A stretch of DNA of 36,876 nucleotides, taken from contig JAFYOL010000204.1 in NCBI GenBank assembly GCA_017560205.1, positions 1 through 36,876 on the forward strand. The letters run 5' to 3'. Below are positions 2,700 through 10,353 of the stretch, piece after piece. Origin of the DNA: Erysipelotrichaceae bacterium. GTDB taxonomy: Bacteria; Bacillota_I; Bacilli_A; Erysipelotrichales; Erysipelotrichaceae. The notes beneath the pieces were generated by a model that saw nothing but the letters and a program-made list of their open reading frames with translations, was not told where the DNA came from and did no database searches. Positions within the stretch are counted from its first letter, which is position 1. Each line of letters begins with the position of its first letter. The translations under genes and the position numbers were made by a program.

Positions 2700-3266
2700 A
2701 TGCTGGTGGATATTACATTAAAAATTACACCTGAAATGATGAAACAGGTGTTCAATACACAGACCGTATCTTTTTCAGGACATATTGGAACTCATTTTGA
2801 TGTCATGGATAAAGAGTTCCCATTGGACTATACAAAACGAAAGGGAATTGTGTTTGATGTCTCTTCTATTTCAGAACGAGATATTGAATGCACAGACATT
2901 GATTTATCGCGTATTGAAAAAGACATGTTTGTGCTGTTTTATTCCGGTATGATTGAACGTATTGAATATGGGACAAAACCTTATTTCAAGGAACATCCTC
3001 AGCTGTCTCATGAATTGATTGATGTCTTGATTGAAAAAGAAATATCGATGATAGGGGTTGATTTCTCTGGGGTGCGTCGTGGAAGTGAACATACACCAAA
3101 AGATCAGCTGTGCGCTGATCATGGTATCTTTGTGATTGAGAACTTATGCAATTTAAAGAATTTATTGAACGCAAAGACATGTACGGTGCATACTTATCCA
3201 TTAAATATGACACAGATGACAGGTCTTCCTTGTCGTGTAGTTGCAGAAATAGAAAAAGACGAATAA
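2700..3266 (+). CDS. Cyclase-family (KynB-like) metal-dependent hydrolase
   Basis: A 188-residue protein of the cyclase/kynurenine-formamidase-like family. These are metal-dependent hydrolases of amide or ester bonds in varied pathways. The family metal-binding signature is visible as HIGTHFD (His28, His32, Asp34), and the C-terminal half has the expected G-V-D-F-S-G...E-H...H-G-I-F-V-I-E-N-L block. The usual proline after the HxGTHxD signature is not at the standard place (VMDKEFP). The gene starts 2 nt after the SDR stop, and its RBS lies in the last codons of that gene (AAGGTGG), which points to translational coupling. Its stop codon lies inside a terminator hairpin. Function as a formamidase is not implied; the SDR neighbour suggests a small catabolic or modification step on an unknown compound. 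Confidence 0.8.
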   Translation: MLVDITLKITPEMMKQVFNTQTVSFSGHIGTHFDVMDKEFPLDYTKRKGIVFDVSSISERDIECTDIDLSRIEKDMFVLFYSGMIERIEYGTKPYFKEHPQLSHELIDVLIEKEISMIGVDFSGVRRGSEHTPKDQLCADHGIFVIENLCNLKNLLNAKTCTVHTYPLNMTQMTGLPCRVVAEIEKDE

Positions 3267-3279
3267 TTCGTCTTTTTTC
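3253..3279. terminator. Bidirectional hairpin terminator overlapping the cyclase-gene stop codon
   Basis: AAAAAGACGAA (3253-3263) pairs with TTCGTCTTTTT (3267-3277) around TAA, which is the stop codon itself. The A-rich left arm gives a T tract on the other strand, so it can also stop leftward transcription. Confidence 0.8.
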
Positions 3280-3290
3280 TCTATATAAAT

Positions 3291-3318
3291 AAAAAAACAT
3301 GGTAACCCATGTCCTTTT
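3291..3318 (-). terminator. Leftward hairpin terminator downstream of the small-RNA block
   Basis: Read on the minus strand, ACATGG (complement of 3312-3307) pairs with CCATGT (complement of 3302-3297) around GTTA and is followed by a run of T (complement of the A7 at 3291-3297). The long T tract is on the minus strand, so it best fits transcription coming from the gene-free block at 3320-3735. Confidence 0.65.
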
Positions 3319-3446
3319 TATCAATCTGTATACATATGTGATATCATGACTACAGTCTTGAGGGCAATTTTTATCTGTCTTTCTTTTTTAACTTCATTGA
3401 TAGGGAGTATTTCTGTTGGTCGAAGGTTTGGGAGGTACGCTTCGTT

Positions 3447-3650
3447 TTGCTTATTCACAGAAATTTCAGCGAGTTATCAAGTTGAACATTTTCTTAAAGT
3501 GTTTCTACATTGTGTTCAGATCTTAGGGAGAATTCACTGTTCACGGTTTGCTTATTCATGTAAATTCGCTTTAATAAAAAACTGCCTGGAATTTGACCAG
3601 ACAGAGTTGCTTATTCACTGAACTGATCAAAGTGACGTGTCACTGTTCAC
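3447..3650. repeat. Short direct repeats: TTGCTTATTCA x3 and TCACTGTTCAC x2
   Basis: Three exact copies of the 11-mer TTGCTTATTCA lie at 3447-3457, 3548-3558 and 3607-3617, and two exact copies of TCACTGTTCAC at 3534-3544 and 3640-3650, all in the same orientation. The first TTGCTTATTCA continues as TTATTCACA, which fits a relaxed DnaA-box (TTATNCACA); the other two copies deviate at the end. The repeats fall in or around the minus-strand small-RNA candidate, so they could be recurring RNA elements (UGAAUAAGCAA, GUGAACAGUGA) or protein-binding sites. I cannot tell which. Confidence 0.6.
3575..3604 (-). terminator. Rho-independent terminator of the candidate small RNA
   Basis: On the minus strand CUGUCUGG and CCAGGCAG form an 8-bp stem (one U-G wobble) around UCAAAUU, followed directly by UUUUUUAUU. 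The stem has a C-A mismatch if read on the plus strand. Confidence 0.7.
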
Positions 3651-3698
3651 AGTTAAGGCTGTGTGTGGATCGCTTGACCAATTACAAGCATAAATGAC
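3575..3698 (-). ncRNA. Candidate small structured RNA (about 124 nt), unknown class
   Basis: No believable ORF covers this stretch, yet on the minus strand it has everything needed for a discrete transcript: a perfect sigma-A promoter (TTGACA, 17 nt, TATAAT; 3733-3705), a predicted start near 3698, and an end at a hairpin with a U6 tract (3604-3576). An internal hairpin forms from AACTG/CAGTT (3654-3650 with 3625-3621) enclosing AGTGA/TCACT (3644-3640 with 3635-3631). The terminator stem CUGUCUGG/CCAGGCAG contains a U-G wobble that pairs only in the minus-strand RNA, which supports this orientation. If it reads through, the next leftward terminator at 3318-3291 would give about 400 nt. I compared it from memory with 6S RNA, tmRNA, RNase P, SRP RNA and common riboswitches and found no match. 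The class is unknown. Confidence 0.55.
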
Positions 3699-3704
3699 GG
3701 GCAT

Positions 3705-3733
3705 ATTATAACCAGTGAAATATGCGCTGTCAA
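3705..3733 (-). promoter_or_regulatory. Perfect sigma-A promoter, leftward, for the candidate small RNA
   Basis: On the minus strand TTGACA (3733-3728) and TATAAT (3710-3705) are separated by exactly 17 nt. Both hexamers match consensus fully. No coding sequence starts downstream on that strand for about 400 nt. Confidence 0.8.
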
Positions 3734-3773
3734 TAGGAAAAAACAAACTTTTTTAATGTAATCCCTTACAATT

Positions 3774-3800
3774 AAAAACGCTTATTTTAAAGCGTTTTTT
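3774..3800 (-). terminator. Terminator of the YgjV-like gene
   Basis: AAAAACGCTT (3774-3783) pairs with AAGCGTTTTT (3790-3799). On the minus strand the hairpin overlaps the last codons and stop of the YgjV-like gene. The arms are A/T-tailed on both sides, so it probably works both ways and shields the gene from the small-RNA promoter region. Confidence 0.75.
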
Positions 3801-4294
3801 TGATCTTTTAAGATCATTTTTATACCGATAATATTGGTCATAATGGACAGACAATCAAAGGTAAAAGAGACAAAATTCAGGTAGTTTAAATCATACAGAA
3901 CCCAGCAGAATGATGTACCGATAATCATCTTTTTTAATGTGATTTCACTTGGTGTATCCAGATACCAGGTAAAGAAGGAAACCGCAATAATCGGCATGAG
4001 TTCGATGAATCTGAAATTGCCTGGCTGATAGGAAAGAATGATGTAGATGATGATAAACATGATCTTCAGTTTCTTTGAAGGTGTGACTTTAAAGAAAAGC
4101 AGATTTCTGAAAATGGACACCATACCAGAGATGAATCCGGAGTACCCGCCTAACACAAAGTTTGAAATCCCAAACAGAAAGGATTGGAACGTCTGAGAGA
4201 TTAAAATGTTTTTCTTTGTCTTCAATAAACCTGCAGAGACCATTAAAATGCAGGCAACCAAGGATAAACAGTTACCTAAAAGAATTGGATTCAT
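3782..4294 (-). CDS. YgjV-family inner membrane protein
   Basis: A 170-residue, very hydrophobic protein with about five to six predicted membrane segments (for example ILLGNCLSLVACILMVSAGLL, MFIIIYIILSY and IIGTSFCWVLYDLNYL). The pattern of short helices, a conserved SQTFQSFLFGISNFVLGGYSG segment and a W-Y-D region resembles the YgjV family of bacterial inner membrane proteins, whose function is unknown. The start is placed at the ATG at 4294 because GGAGG lies 5 nt before it; an upstream in-frame ATG at 4315 has no RBS. A perfect sigma-A promoter lies just upstream on the same strand. The gene is divergent from the nitroreductase gene and monocistronic. Confidence 0.7.
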   Translation of the reverse strand: MNPILLGNCLSLVACILMVSAGLLKTKKNILISQTFQSFLFGISNFVLGGYSGFISGMVSIFRNLLFFKVTPSKKLKIMFIIIYIILSYQPGNFRFIELMPIIAVSFFTWYLDTPSEITLKKMIIGTSFCWVLYDLNYLNFVSFTFDCLSIMTNIIGIKMILKDQKNALK

Positions 4295-6828: not shown

Positions 6829-7566
6829 ATGAAAGTAGAGATTTGTTGTGGCAGTTATGAAGATTGTCTGAGAGCTGAGCGCGGTGGTGCCAAGCGTGTT
6901 GAACTGAATTCAGCACTGTTTCTGGGTGGTTTGACACCAAGTATCGCAACAGTAAAGAAAGTACTTGATCACACATCTTTGGAAGTGATTGCGATGGTAC
7001 GTCCTCGTGGTGCAGGGTTCTGTTATCTGAATTCAGAAGTTGAAGTCATGATGCAGGATGCAGAAGAAATGTTAAGCTTAGGTGTTGATGGTCTGGCGTT
7101 TGGTTTTCTGAATGCAGACTGTACTGTTGATGTGGAAAAGACAAAGGAAATGGTGGATCTGATTCATCGTTATGGTAAGACAGCTGTGTTCCATCGTGCG
7201 ATTGATTGTGCTGTGGATTATGAAGCATCTGTATGCACATTGATTGAATTGGGTGTAGATCGTATTTTGACCAGTGGTCAGAAAGAAAAGGCGATGGATG
7301 GTGCAGATGCGATTGCGTTGATTCAGAAGAAATATGGTGATCGTCTTGAAGTGCTGCCAGGCAGCGGTGTCAATGCAGGTAATCTGAAAGAACTGTTTGA
7401 AAAGACAGGTGTATCTCAGGCACACTCTTCTTGTCGTCATTGGGAAAATGATCCAACGACAACAGGTGCTGGAGTAACTTACTCTTATCATGAAGCGTAT
7501 GATTATGATTGTGTCAGTCAGGATCTGGTCAGTAAGCTTGTGGCAGAAGCGGAGAAGATTGGATGA
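6829..7566 (+). CDS. cutC: CutC family protein
   Basis: A 245-residue TIM-barrel protein of the CutC family. Diagnostic blocks are EICCGSYEDCLRAERGGAKR and VELNSALFLGGLTPS near the N-terminus, AMVRPRGAGFCYL in the middle, VFHRAID, and ILTSGQ with GSGVNAGN towards the end. The family was named for copper homeostasis in E. coli, but a direct copper role is disputed and the substrate is not established. The RBS is AGAAAGGAAAAGAAAG. It sits between the Ntn hydrolase (26 nt upstream) and pnuC (4-nt ATGA overlap), so the three probably form one transcript. No copper-type regulator or transporter is nearby. Confidence 0.93.
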   Translation: MKVEICCGSYEDCLRAERGGAKRVELNSALFLGGLTPSIATVKKVLDHTSLEVIAMVRPRGAGFCYLNSEVEVMMQDAEEMLSLGVDGLAFGFLNADCTVDVEKTKEMVDLIHRYGKTAVFHRAIDCAVDYEASVCTLIELGVDRILTSGQKEKAMDGADAIALIQKKYGDRLEVLPGSGVNAGNLKELFEKTGVSQAHSSCRHWENDPTTTGAGVTYSYHEAYDYDCVSQDLVSKLVAEAEKIG

Positions 7567-8243
7567 ATTTTTTAAAGCGTTTGTCAGTCTTTGAGCGTCG
7601 TCTGTGGCTGATTTCTGTCACTTTGATTGCCCTGCTTCATATTTTCCAGAAGGATCAGACTGTCTTTCAGCTGATTGCCTCGTTAATTGGAGTTACATCG
7701 TTGATCTTCATGGCCAAGGGTGATGTGATTGGCCAGTGGATGGCAGTGGTGTTCTGCTGCATGTATGCGGTGATTTCATGGCAGTTTCGTTATTATGGTG
7801 AACTGATGACGTATCTGTTTATGAGTTTACCGATTGCGATGATGTCGATTATAGAATGGATGAAAAATCCTTATGCTGAAAATGAAGTGAAGGTTGCGCA
7901 CCTTTCGAAGAAACATTGGGTGATTCTGATTGTGTGTACGGTTGTTGTGACGATTGTGTTTCATTTTATTCTGAAGTTTTTCAATACTCCGAATTTATGG
8001 GTGAGTACCTTGTCGATTGCGACCAGTTTTCTGGCAGCGTCGTTGATGATGCTTCGCAGTCCTTATTATGCAGTGGCTTATGCGTTCAATGATGTTGTGC
8101 TGGTCACTTTGTGGGTTCTGGCTAGTTTTGTTGCACCGGAGAACTTGTCGATGGTGCTGTGTTTCAGTATTTTCCTGGTGAATGATATTTATGCGTATCA
8201 CAGCTGGAAACAGATGAGAAAGCGTCAGGATGAATCAATTTAA
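7563..8243 (+). CDS. pnuC: Nicotinamide riboside transporter PnuC
   Basis: A 226-residue membrane protein with about seven helices matching the PnuC family, which takes up nicotinamide riboside (formerly called an NMN transporter) by facilitated diffusion for NAD synthesis. Family signatures are the WQFRYYGE segment after the third helix and the C-terminal F-L-V-N-D-I-Y-A-Y-H-S-W-K motif. The ATG overlaps the cutC stop (ATGA), indicating translational coupling. A hairpin terminator follows. No kinase such as NadR is encoded in the window, though trapping of the substrate by phosphorylation is the known mechanism. Loop positions are positively charged (KKH, KQMRKR), consistent with the inside-positive rule. 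Confidence 0.92.
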   Translation: MNFLKRLSVFERRLWLISVTLIALLHIFQKDQTVFQLIASLIGVTSLIFMAKGDVIGQWMAVVFCCMYAVISWQFRYYGELMTYLFMSLPIAMMSIIEWMKNPYAENEVKVAHLSKKHWVILIVCTVVVTIVFHFILKFFNTPNLWVSTLSIATSFLAASLMMLRSPYYAVAYAFNDVVLVTLWVLASFVAPENLSMVLCFSIFLVNDIYAYHSWKQMRKRQDESI

Positions 8244-8275: not shown

Positions 8276-8355
8276 AAAGGTTTGTGAAATGAAAGATAAC
8301 ATTGTAGAAATGGATGAATTGTGTTATATAATGAAAAGTTAGGTAGGTGGAATCT

Positions 8356-10353
8356 ATGGATGAAAATCGTTATTTAGGTGAAGAAAAAATTTCTAAACTG
8401 CTTCTTAAATTCTCTGTTCCTTGTGTTGCCGGATTACTGATCAGTGCGTTTTACAACATTGCTGACCAGATCTTTATCGGTAACAGTTCATTAGGTTATC
8501 TCGGAAATGCTGCAACGGGTGTATCATTTCCTGTTATTTGTATTGCCAATGCGTTTGCATGGTGTATTGGTGATGGTGCCGCTTCTTTTTTGAGTATCTG
8601 CTCAGGTCGAAATGACAATGAAAGTGCTCATAAGTGTGTCGGTACTGGTATGACAGTGACAACACTGTTGTCCATTGCGTTGGCAAGTGTGTGTCTGTTG
8701 TTTGCGGAACCTTTGATGAGCATGTTTGGTGCATCTGCTCAGACATTGGGGCTGGCTGTTGATTACTTCAGAATCGTTGTGTTCTTCTTTCCTGTTTATC
8801 TGTTGATGAACGTGTTGAACAGCATGATTCGTGCAGATGGCAGTCCATCTTATGCGATGAAGGGGATGCTGATTGGGGCAATCACAAATATTGTGCTGGA
8901 CCCTGTGTTCATCTTCCTGCTGGATTGGGGTATTGAAGGTGCTGCGTGGGCAACTGTCATCGGACAGATGTTGTCTTTTGTGTTCTGTGCAGTGTATTTC
9001 AGAAAACCAAAGACATTCAAGCTGACTTTAAGCAGCTTCAAGCCAAATATGGAAGTGTTGAGAACGATGATTTCTCTGGGGGCTTCAACATTTGTCACTC
9101 AGATTTCAATCGTGCTTGTTTCTCTGACTTGCAACATCATGCTGGCAAAGTATGGTGCATTGTCTATTTATGGTCCAGACATTCCAATCTCTGTTTTCAG
9201 TATTCAGACTAAGGTGTATACAATTGTTTTAAGTATTGTTACTGGGATTGTACTTGGTGGTCAGCCAATCTTTGGATACAACTATGGTGCACGTAAGATG
9301 GACCGTGTAAAAGATATCTATAAGATGGTCTTGAAACTGACAATTCTGGCAGGTGTGATTGCGACTGTTCTGTGTCAGTTCTTTCCAAGTGTGATTTTAA
9401 GTATCTTTGGTACAGGTGATGCGCTGTACATGGAATTTGGTGTCAAGACATTCCGTATTTATCTGTCTTTAATGACCATCACTGGTCTGGTTAAGATGAC
9501 TGCTGTGTTCTTCCAGTCCATTGGTAAGTCACTGCATGCAGTTGCAGCATCTCTGGTGCGTGATATTGTGTGCTTCTGTACATTGGCTTTGATTTTGCCG
9601 AGTATCTTTGAATCGAATGCTGCAGGAAGTGGAATCAACGGGATTCTGATTGCGGCTCCTGTTGCCGATGTGGTAGCTTTGGCTGTGATTCTGGTGCTGA
9701 CAATTTCTTTCTTCAAGTCACTCAATAAGGAAACTGCAGCGGTTGAAGAAAAGGTTGTTTTCCCTGAATCAAAAGAGGGAATCATCATTACTGTGGGGCG
9801 TGAACATGGTTCAGGTGGTAAGCAGATTGCCAAGATGGTCGCTGAAATGCTGGAAGTTCCATTCTACTATAAGGAGCTGACTGTTCTGGCTGCTCAGGAA
9901 AGTGGTCTGGACAAGGAATTCCTGTCTGGAATCAATGAAAATTCACCATCCATTCTGCATGATCTGTATCTGAGCACAAATGTTGTTCAGCAGGCTGTGA
10001 TTGCGCAGGAAAAAGTCATCCGTGCTATTGCGGATAAGGGTGCTTGTGTGATTGTAGGGCGTGCTGCTGACTACATCCTCAAAGACAGAGACAATGTGTT
10101 CCGTGTGTTCCTGCATGCACCAAAAGAATATCGTATCAAAAGCATCATGGAGATGTATGGAGACAATGAAGCTCAGGCTGAAGAAAACGTACGTCATTCC
10201 GATGCTGCACGTGCTTCTTATTATCGCAATGTCACATCTCAGAAGTGGGGCGATCCTCATCATATGGATCTGGTGCTGGATGCTTCTTTGGGACGTGAAG
10301 TATGCGCAAGAATCATTGTGGATGCAGTAAAAAACATTCAGAATAAAGCTTAA
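8356..10353 (+). CDS. MATE-family transporter fused to a C-terminal cytidylate-kinase-like domain
   Basis: The first ~455 residues form a 12-helix MATE (multi-antimicrobial extrusion) transporter with the usual start EEKISKLLLKFSVPCVAGLL, the N-half YNIADQIFIG and the C-half GGQPIFGYNYGARK. These proteins exchange Na+ or H+ for cationic compounds. From about residue 475 the chain becomes a soluble P-loop kinase-like domain: IITVGREHGSGGKQIAKM (phosphate-binding loop), PFYYKEL, VIVGRAADYIL, and a basic helix with RHSDAARASYYRNVT. This matches the cytidylate-kinase-like family often found as single proteins in Firmicutes. There is no stop or frameshift between the parts, and the join has a short charged linker (NKETAAVEEKVVFPESKE). 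The start is the ATG at 8356, 8 nt after AGGTAGG; the GTG at 8347 falls in the RBS. Neither the transported compound nor the kinase substrate is known. Confidence 0.9.
   Translation: MDENRYLGEEKISKLLLKFSVPCVAGLLISAFYNIADQIFIGNSSLGYLGNAATGVSFPVICIANAFAWCIGDGAASFLSICSGRNDNESAHKCVGTGMTVTTLLSIALASVCLLFAEPLMSMFGASAQTLGLAVDYFRIVVFFFPVYLLMNVLNSMIRADGSPSYAMKGMLIGAITNIVLDPVFIFLLDWGIEGAAWATVIGQMLSFVFCAVYFRKPKTFKLTLSSFKPNMEVLRTMISLGASTFVTQISIVLVSLTCNIMLAKYGALSIYGPDIPISVFSIQTKVYTIVLSIVTGIVLGGQPIFGYNYGARKMDRVKDIYKMVLKLTILAGVIATVLCQFFPSVILSIFGTGDALYMEFGVKTFRIYLSLMTITGLVKMTAVFFQSIGKSLHAVAASLVRDIVCFCTLALILPSIFESNAAGSGINGILIAAPVADVVALAVILVLTISFFKSLNKETAAVEEKVVFPESKEGIIITVGREHGSGGKQIAKMVAEMLEVPFYYKELTVLAAQESGLDKEFLSGINENSPSILHDLYLSTNVVQQAVIAQEKVIRAIADKGACVIVGRAADYILKDRDNVFRVFLHAPKEYRIKSIMEMYGDNEAQAEENVRHSDAARASYYRNVTSQKWGDPHHMDLVLDASLGREVCARIIVDAVKNIQNKA

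Follow-up and report, generated by a model that had tools for sequence, protein, structure and literature searches.

A homologue of ygjV-linked purine-riboswitch leaders that stands without a recognisable downstream gene in an Erysipelotrichaceae bacterium

Results

A minus-strand non-coding element behind a ygjV-like gene

The window analysed here is the whole 36,876-nt stretch of one contig from an Erysipelotrichaceae bacterium (genome G000). On its minus strand, a ygjV-like gene is followed by a short element with its own promoter and terminator (Table 1). An earlier note, made from the letters alone, had described this element as an unannotated small-RNA locus, and its reading of the signals holds: the promoter matches the consensus at 12 of 12 positions, and the terminator is an 8-bp hairpin with U6 whose stem (CUGUCUGG/CCAGGCAG) contains one U-G pair that is specific to the minus-strand RNA, the plus-strand equivalent being A-C. 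Against the 0.03 perfect promoter sites per window that first-order Markov shuffles predict, the 36.9 kb contain only two, both on the minus strand (at 3733 and 4351). The second of these (4351-4323) drives the neighbouring ygjV-like gene, which has no aptamer leader. This ygjV is the only one in G000.

The structured RNA begins at about position 3698, and most likely the element chiefly yields a terminated RNA of ~124 nt, which is more stable than its shuffles (z -2.6, 3/200). Read-through would be predicted to give an RNA of ~409 nt, reaching from 3698 to a second terminator-like hairpin, with no recognised gene within it. As the earlier note had said, the leader has no start codon preceded by a Shine-Dalgarno sequence. 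A coding gene with homologues, which that note had named for the plus strand among the findings that would speak against its reading, was rejected on either strand of 3290-3740: the ORFs tested there, a 45-aa ORF included, had no Pfam match and no convincing homologue.

Table 1. Features of the element and its surroundings, in window coordinates
Feature	Position	Strand	Remarks
ygjV-like gene (Imp-YgjV, PF10688)	3782..4294	-	Pfam 80 bits; upstream of the element
Sigma-70-type promoter	3705..3733	-	-35 TTGACA 3733-3728; 17-nt spacer; -10 TATAAT 3710-3705
Purine-riboswitch-type three-way-junction aptamer	3639..3698	-	Homology to G002 leader, R2 model, covariation
P1	3698-3693/3644-3639	-	
P2	3689-3685/3676-3672	-	
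P3	3663-3659/3652-3648	-	
Pocket U22, C51, C74	3692, 3667, 3645	-	
Variant J2/3 GAUCCACA	3664..3671	-	1 nt shorter than canonical GUUUCUAC(A); C51; from alignments
Anti-P1 hairpin AGUGA-CACG-UCACU	3644-3631	-	Sequence; constrained folds
Antiterminator 5' strand UUUGAUCAG	3631-3623	-	Sequence; constrained folds
Terminator 5' arm CUGGUCAAA	3600-3592	-	Alternative pairing with antiterminator strand (constrained folds)
Intrinsic terminator	3604-3575	-	8-bp stem 3604-3597/3589-3582 + U6
Leader-like segment region behind terminator	3443..3590	-	TGAATAAGCAA copies and a 73% copy
Second terminator-like hairpin	3291..3318	-	Predicted end of read-through RNA

Between 3575 and 3291, downstream of the element, there is no recognisable gene before the second terminator. 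Behind the terminator lie extra copies of leader-like segments. Three exact copies of TGAATAAGCAA fall within 171 nt (at 3617, 3558 and 3457 on the minus strand), and the window has no other copy, not even one with a single mismatch. In addition, 3625-3654 recurs at 73% identity at 3519-3548 on the same strand. About 3 kb from ygjV, a gene for a PnuC-type transporter (PF04973) occupies 7563-8243 on the plus strand. AlphaFold2, run with two sequences, modelled YgjV as seven helices, but with low confidence (pLDDT 62); Foldseek returned no meaningful match to this model, and no solved structural relative was found by sequence.

Homology to a purine-riboswitch leader

By blastn, window positions 3698-3594 (minus strand) are 88% identical to a segment in the genome of a sister species of the same genus (G002:C7:70774-70879, equal to L003:1501-1606), where the segment lies 5' of a ygjV gene as its leader. 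The match spans the RNA from its expected transcription start to inside the terminator. Neighbouring genes align at 75-91% and the intergenic DNA around the match is unalignable. In G002 the order is promoter, leader, terminator (GUCUGGUC/GGCCAGAC), GGAGG and the ATG of ygjV, with the promoter (TTGACT-17-TATAAT) spaced from the leader as in the window. The ygjV encoded there and that of the window are 49% identical. Among 273 genomes of the family, G002 held the only strong DNA relative of the element (E<=0.01), besides a 20-nt promoter-like match; a contig search with the YgjV protein matched only G002's own record. The element is single-copy in its own genome and had no match in the E. coli collection.

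The G002 leader is recognised by Rfam as a Purine riboswitch (RF00167; 44.5 bits against a curated cut-off of 37). The Rfam scan that the earlier note had proposed returned no family at gathering score in the window, and Purine was absent for a short stretch with the window copy even at E<=10, in keeping with the note's view that the element matches no known RNA class. That view fails on the relatives: since the homologues precede ygjV genes as purine-riboswitch leaders, the class is a known one, and an unknown sRNA class is ruled out by the homology chain to RF00167. There was likewise no 6S RNA match (RF00013) at the element; the genome encodes a separate 6S RNA (C78:1968-2128). Two purine riboswitches are recognised by Rfam elsewhere in G000 (C28:11488-11587 and C37:3778-3875, at 64 and 43 bits). 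The window also carries a gene for a MATE and cytidylate-kinase-like fusion (8347-10353, plus strand), whose homologues in two other genomes (G205 and G197; L123, L124) have a canonical purine leader. Rfam reports no purine riboswitch in the window.

Further ygjV leaders of the same architecture

Three leaders beyond that of G002 share its architecture and extend the group to two families of the order. One (G060) came to light when the upstream regions of 30 ygjV homologues from the family were read, and it scores 31.3 bits with the Purine model, below the cut-off of 37. The other two (G563 and G482) came from a search for ygjV in genomes across the phylum, belong to a second family of the same order and are not reported by the RF00167 model. 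Each of the two stands before tandem ygjV genes served by one variant purine leader (G563:C7:51534-52608 and G482:C12:64970-66034). All four leaders outside the window thus lie directly upstream of ygjV. The earlier note's hint at ygjV-like genes was apt in this respect, but in the window itself ygjV lies on the wrong side of the element.

A covariance model from three members (R2), with neither G563 nor G482 in its training, scores these two leaders at 58 bits. Over 316 genomes of the order, R2 found only the five members and three weaker matches, two of which are canonical purine leaders before a MATE-type gene, and among the matches whose context was read there was no orphan copy elsewhere. 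An earlier model from two sequences (R1) had returned mainly these loci, together with canonical purine leaders. No paper in the collection searched paired ygjV with a riboswitch, and the ygjV-linked form of the purine riboswitch is apparently previously unreported.

Aptamer, covariation and pocket

In an alignment of only four distinct sequences, made with a model that had been built from three of the rows, 89% of cells are paired and both sides change in 7 of 16 pairs, with covariation in P1, P2 and P3. None of 500 shuffles reached the covariation score, and controls with slid pairings were 20-40% paired. P3 is undercounted because the G060 stem is shifted by one position. The changes are readily seen in P2, where GCUUG/CAAGC, GCCUG/CAGGC and GCCAA/UUGGC leave the stem paired in all four sequences. 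Covariation among relatives upstream of ygjV had been put forward as a check by the earlier note; the stems covary strongly and the RNA is conserved in the minus-strand sense. The L2-L3 kissing nucleotides (GG in L2, CC in L3), U22 and C74 are invariant among the members. C74, the position that marks recognition of a guanine-type ligand, lies in each of the five immediately ahead of the 3' strand of P1.

The pocket varies within the group. J2/3 has 7 nt with C51 in the window (GAUCCAC), G060 (GUUCCAC) and G563/G482 (GACCCAC), whereas G002, the nearest relative of the window copy, is the sole member of the five with the canonical 8-nt GUUUCUAC and U51. J3/1 is AAC, ACC or AUC, and the P1 pair nearest the junction is U-A or A-U.

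Alternative folds

In constrained folds, the G060 terminator uses the 3' strand of P1. That of G563 uses the 5' strand of P3/L3, and the unconstrained fold of this leader is exactly the aptamer. Both terminators take strands of the aptamer, so that aptamer folding opposes termination in both. The folds of G002 are near balance (aptamer and antiterminator, -36.2, against terminator forms, -35.5). In the window, the lowest-energy fold (-34.1) is not the aptamer: it joins the P2 5' strand to the antiterminator strand in a long helix and adds the terminator, with aptamer plus terminator at -31.0 and aptamer plus antiterminator at -27.1. These computed energies suggest a bias of the window copy towards termination. 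The compound hairpin that the earlier note placed at 3654-3621 can form, but only as part of this larger set of alternative structures.

Discussion

The element is, with good confidence, a transcribed leader of the purine-riboswitch family, of a ygjV-linked variant that is probably ON for a guanine-type ligand, and the window copy keeps promoter, aptamer and terminator with no gene behind them. For G060 and G563 the folds indicate that ligand would turn ygjV on, and those of G002 are compatible with this. According to this model, a guanine-type ligand would stabilise P1-P2-P3 in the ygjV-linked relatives, the stabilised aptamer would block formation of the terminator, and ygjV would be switched on. 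The window copy may retain some residual switching activity.

As to the ligand, C51 confers selectivity for nucleoside over nucleobase in 2'-dG riboswitches, and U51C alone reportedly changes the preference from guanine to dG (PMC8872408). Because of C51, we propose a nucleoside, probably 2'-deoxyguanosine or guanosine by analogy, as the ligand of the relatives. The deletion in J2/3 may alter more than C51 alone suggests. One may tentatively go further and see here a distinct natural variant class (7-nt J2/3, C51, U22, C74 and J1/2 UAU) that would sense a guanine nucleoside and turn on a YgjV with a nucleoside-related role. The window and G002 aptamers would then be a nearly identical pair differing mainly in the pocket, one of them now a gene-less RNA. 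We consider this extended proposal plausible, somewhat short of an even chance.

Why the window copy stands alone may be explained in several ways. A rearrangement may have separated the leader from its ygjV, leaving a young relic in decay, a possible if rather doubtful account. It fits the missing downstream gene, the leader-like fragments and repeats behind the element, the alternative helix that outcompetes the aptamer, and the leaderless promoter of the upstream ygjV. However, the stems, L2, L3, U22 and C74 are intact and both -35 and -10 are perfect, and the J2/3 changes relative to G002 match G060 and G563 in length and in C51, unlike random decay; kept stems and pocket changes that parallel other lineages speak against long decay. 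Nor did a search of 3260-3760 find any ygjV remnant. The missing gene could also be an artefact, with real downstream sequence such as a second ygjV lost from a metagenome-assembled genome. Its fragmentation into 252 contigs, and the tandem ygjV genes behind one leader in the other family, would allow for this, yet the element, ygjV and flanking genes lie within one 36.9-kb contig whose order largely agrees with G002, and G000 has just one ygjV, which makes an assembly error quite improbable.

Since the window copy alone lacks a gene, a trans-acting role is possible for that copy. The riboswitch could have been exapted, with the terminated leader of ~124 nt serving as a trans-acting small RNA or with the read-through product acting on neighbouring transcripts. 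The perfect promoter, the kept terminator, the absence of a downstream gene, the 88% conservation of the leader and a fold biased to termination would suit such a role. However, riboswitch function in the ygjV-linked relatives explains all of the conservation, and R2 found no orphan copy in other genomes of the order, so we regard exaptation as unlikely. The free-standing regulatory RNA proposed in the earlier note is in any case not an ordinary stand-alone sRNA, its relatives being ygjV leaders and only the window copy lacking the gene. A new, unrelated sRNA class or a 6S-like RNA, to which the missing Rfam match of the window copy might point, is scarcely credible against the homology chain to RF00167 and the separate 6S RNA of this genome.

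Should the C51 variant prove to bind a guanine nucleoside, the purine riboswitch scaffold would gain another ligand class or subclass, and YgjV (PF10688), an uncharacterised family, would acquire a link to metabolism. The window and G002 would then serve as a natural experiment on how few changes in the junction suffice to shift riboswitch specificity. These purine-riboswitch variants are overlooked by Rfam.

Compared with the known Purine riboswitch (RF00167), the ygjV-linked variant has the same P1/P2/P3 junction, GG in L2, CC in L3, U22 and C74, and its G002 member passes the cut-off. It differs in the short J2/3, C51, J1/2 UAU and shorter L2, L3 and P2, in preceding ygjV, and in that the window, G563 and G482 copies go unreported by the model. 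The guanine-I riboswitch has U51 and the 8-nt J2/3 GUUUCUAC, which the window copy does not. The variant and 2'-dG-I of Mesoplasma florum both have C at the equivalent of position 51, but the variant has U at the C31 position, a longer L3 (6-7 nt against 4), another host and another gene. Rare Firmicutes variants of the guanine riboswitch, namely xanthine-II, guanine-II and 2'-dG-III, similarly have altered junctions, and several are ON switches. As described (PMC9295807), xanthine-II has U51G and insertions and guanine-II keeps U51 with an insertion in J2-3, in contrast to C51 and the shortened J2/3 here, and 2'-dG-III precedes a purine nucleoside hydrolase rather than ygjV. The pocket triad of 2'-dG-II, U22/C51/C74 (PMC8872408), is present in the window, G060, G563 and G482, although the variant is without the two-nucleotide J3/1 insertion and the junction-proximal P1 G-C pair of 2'-dG-II.
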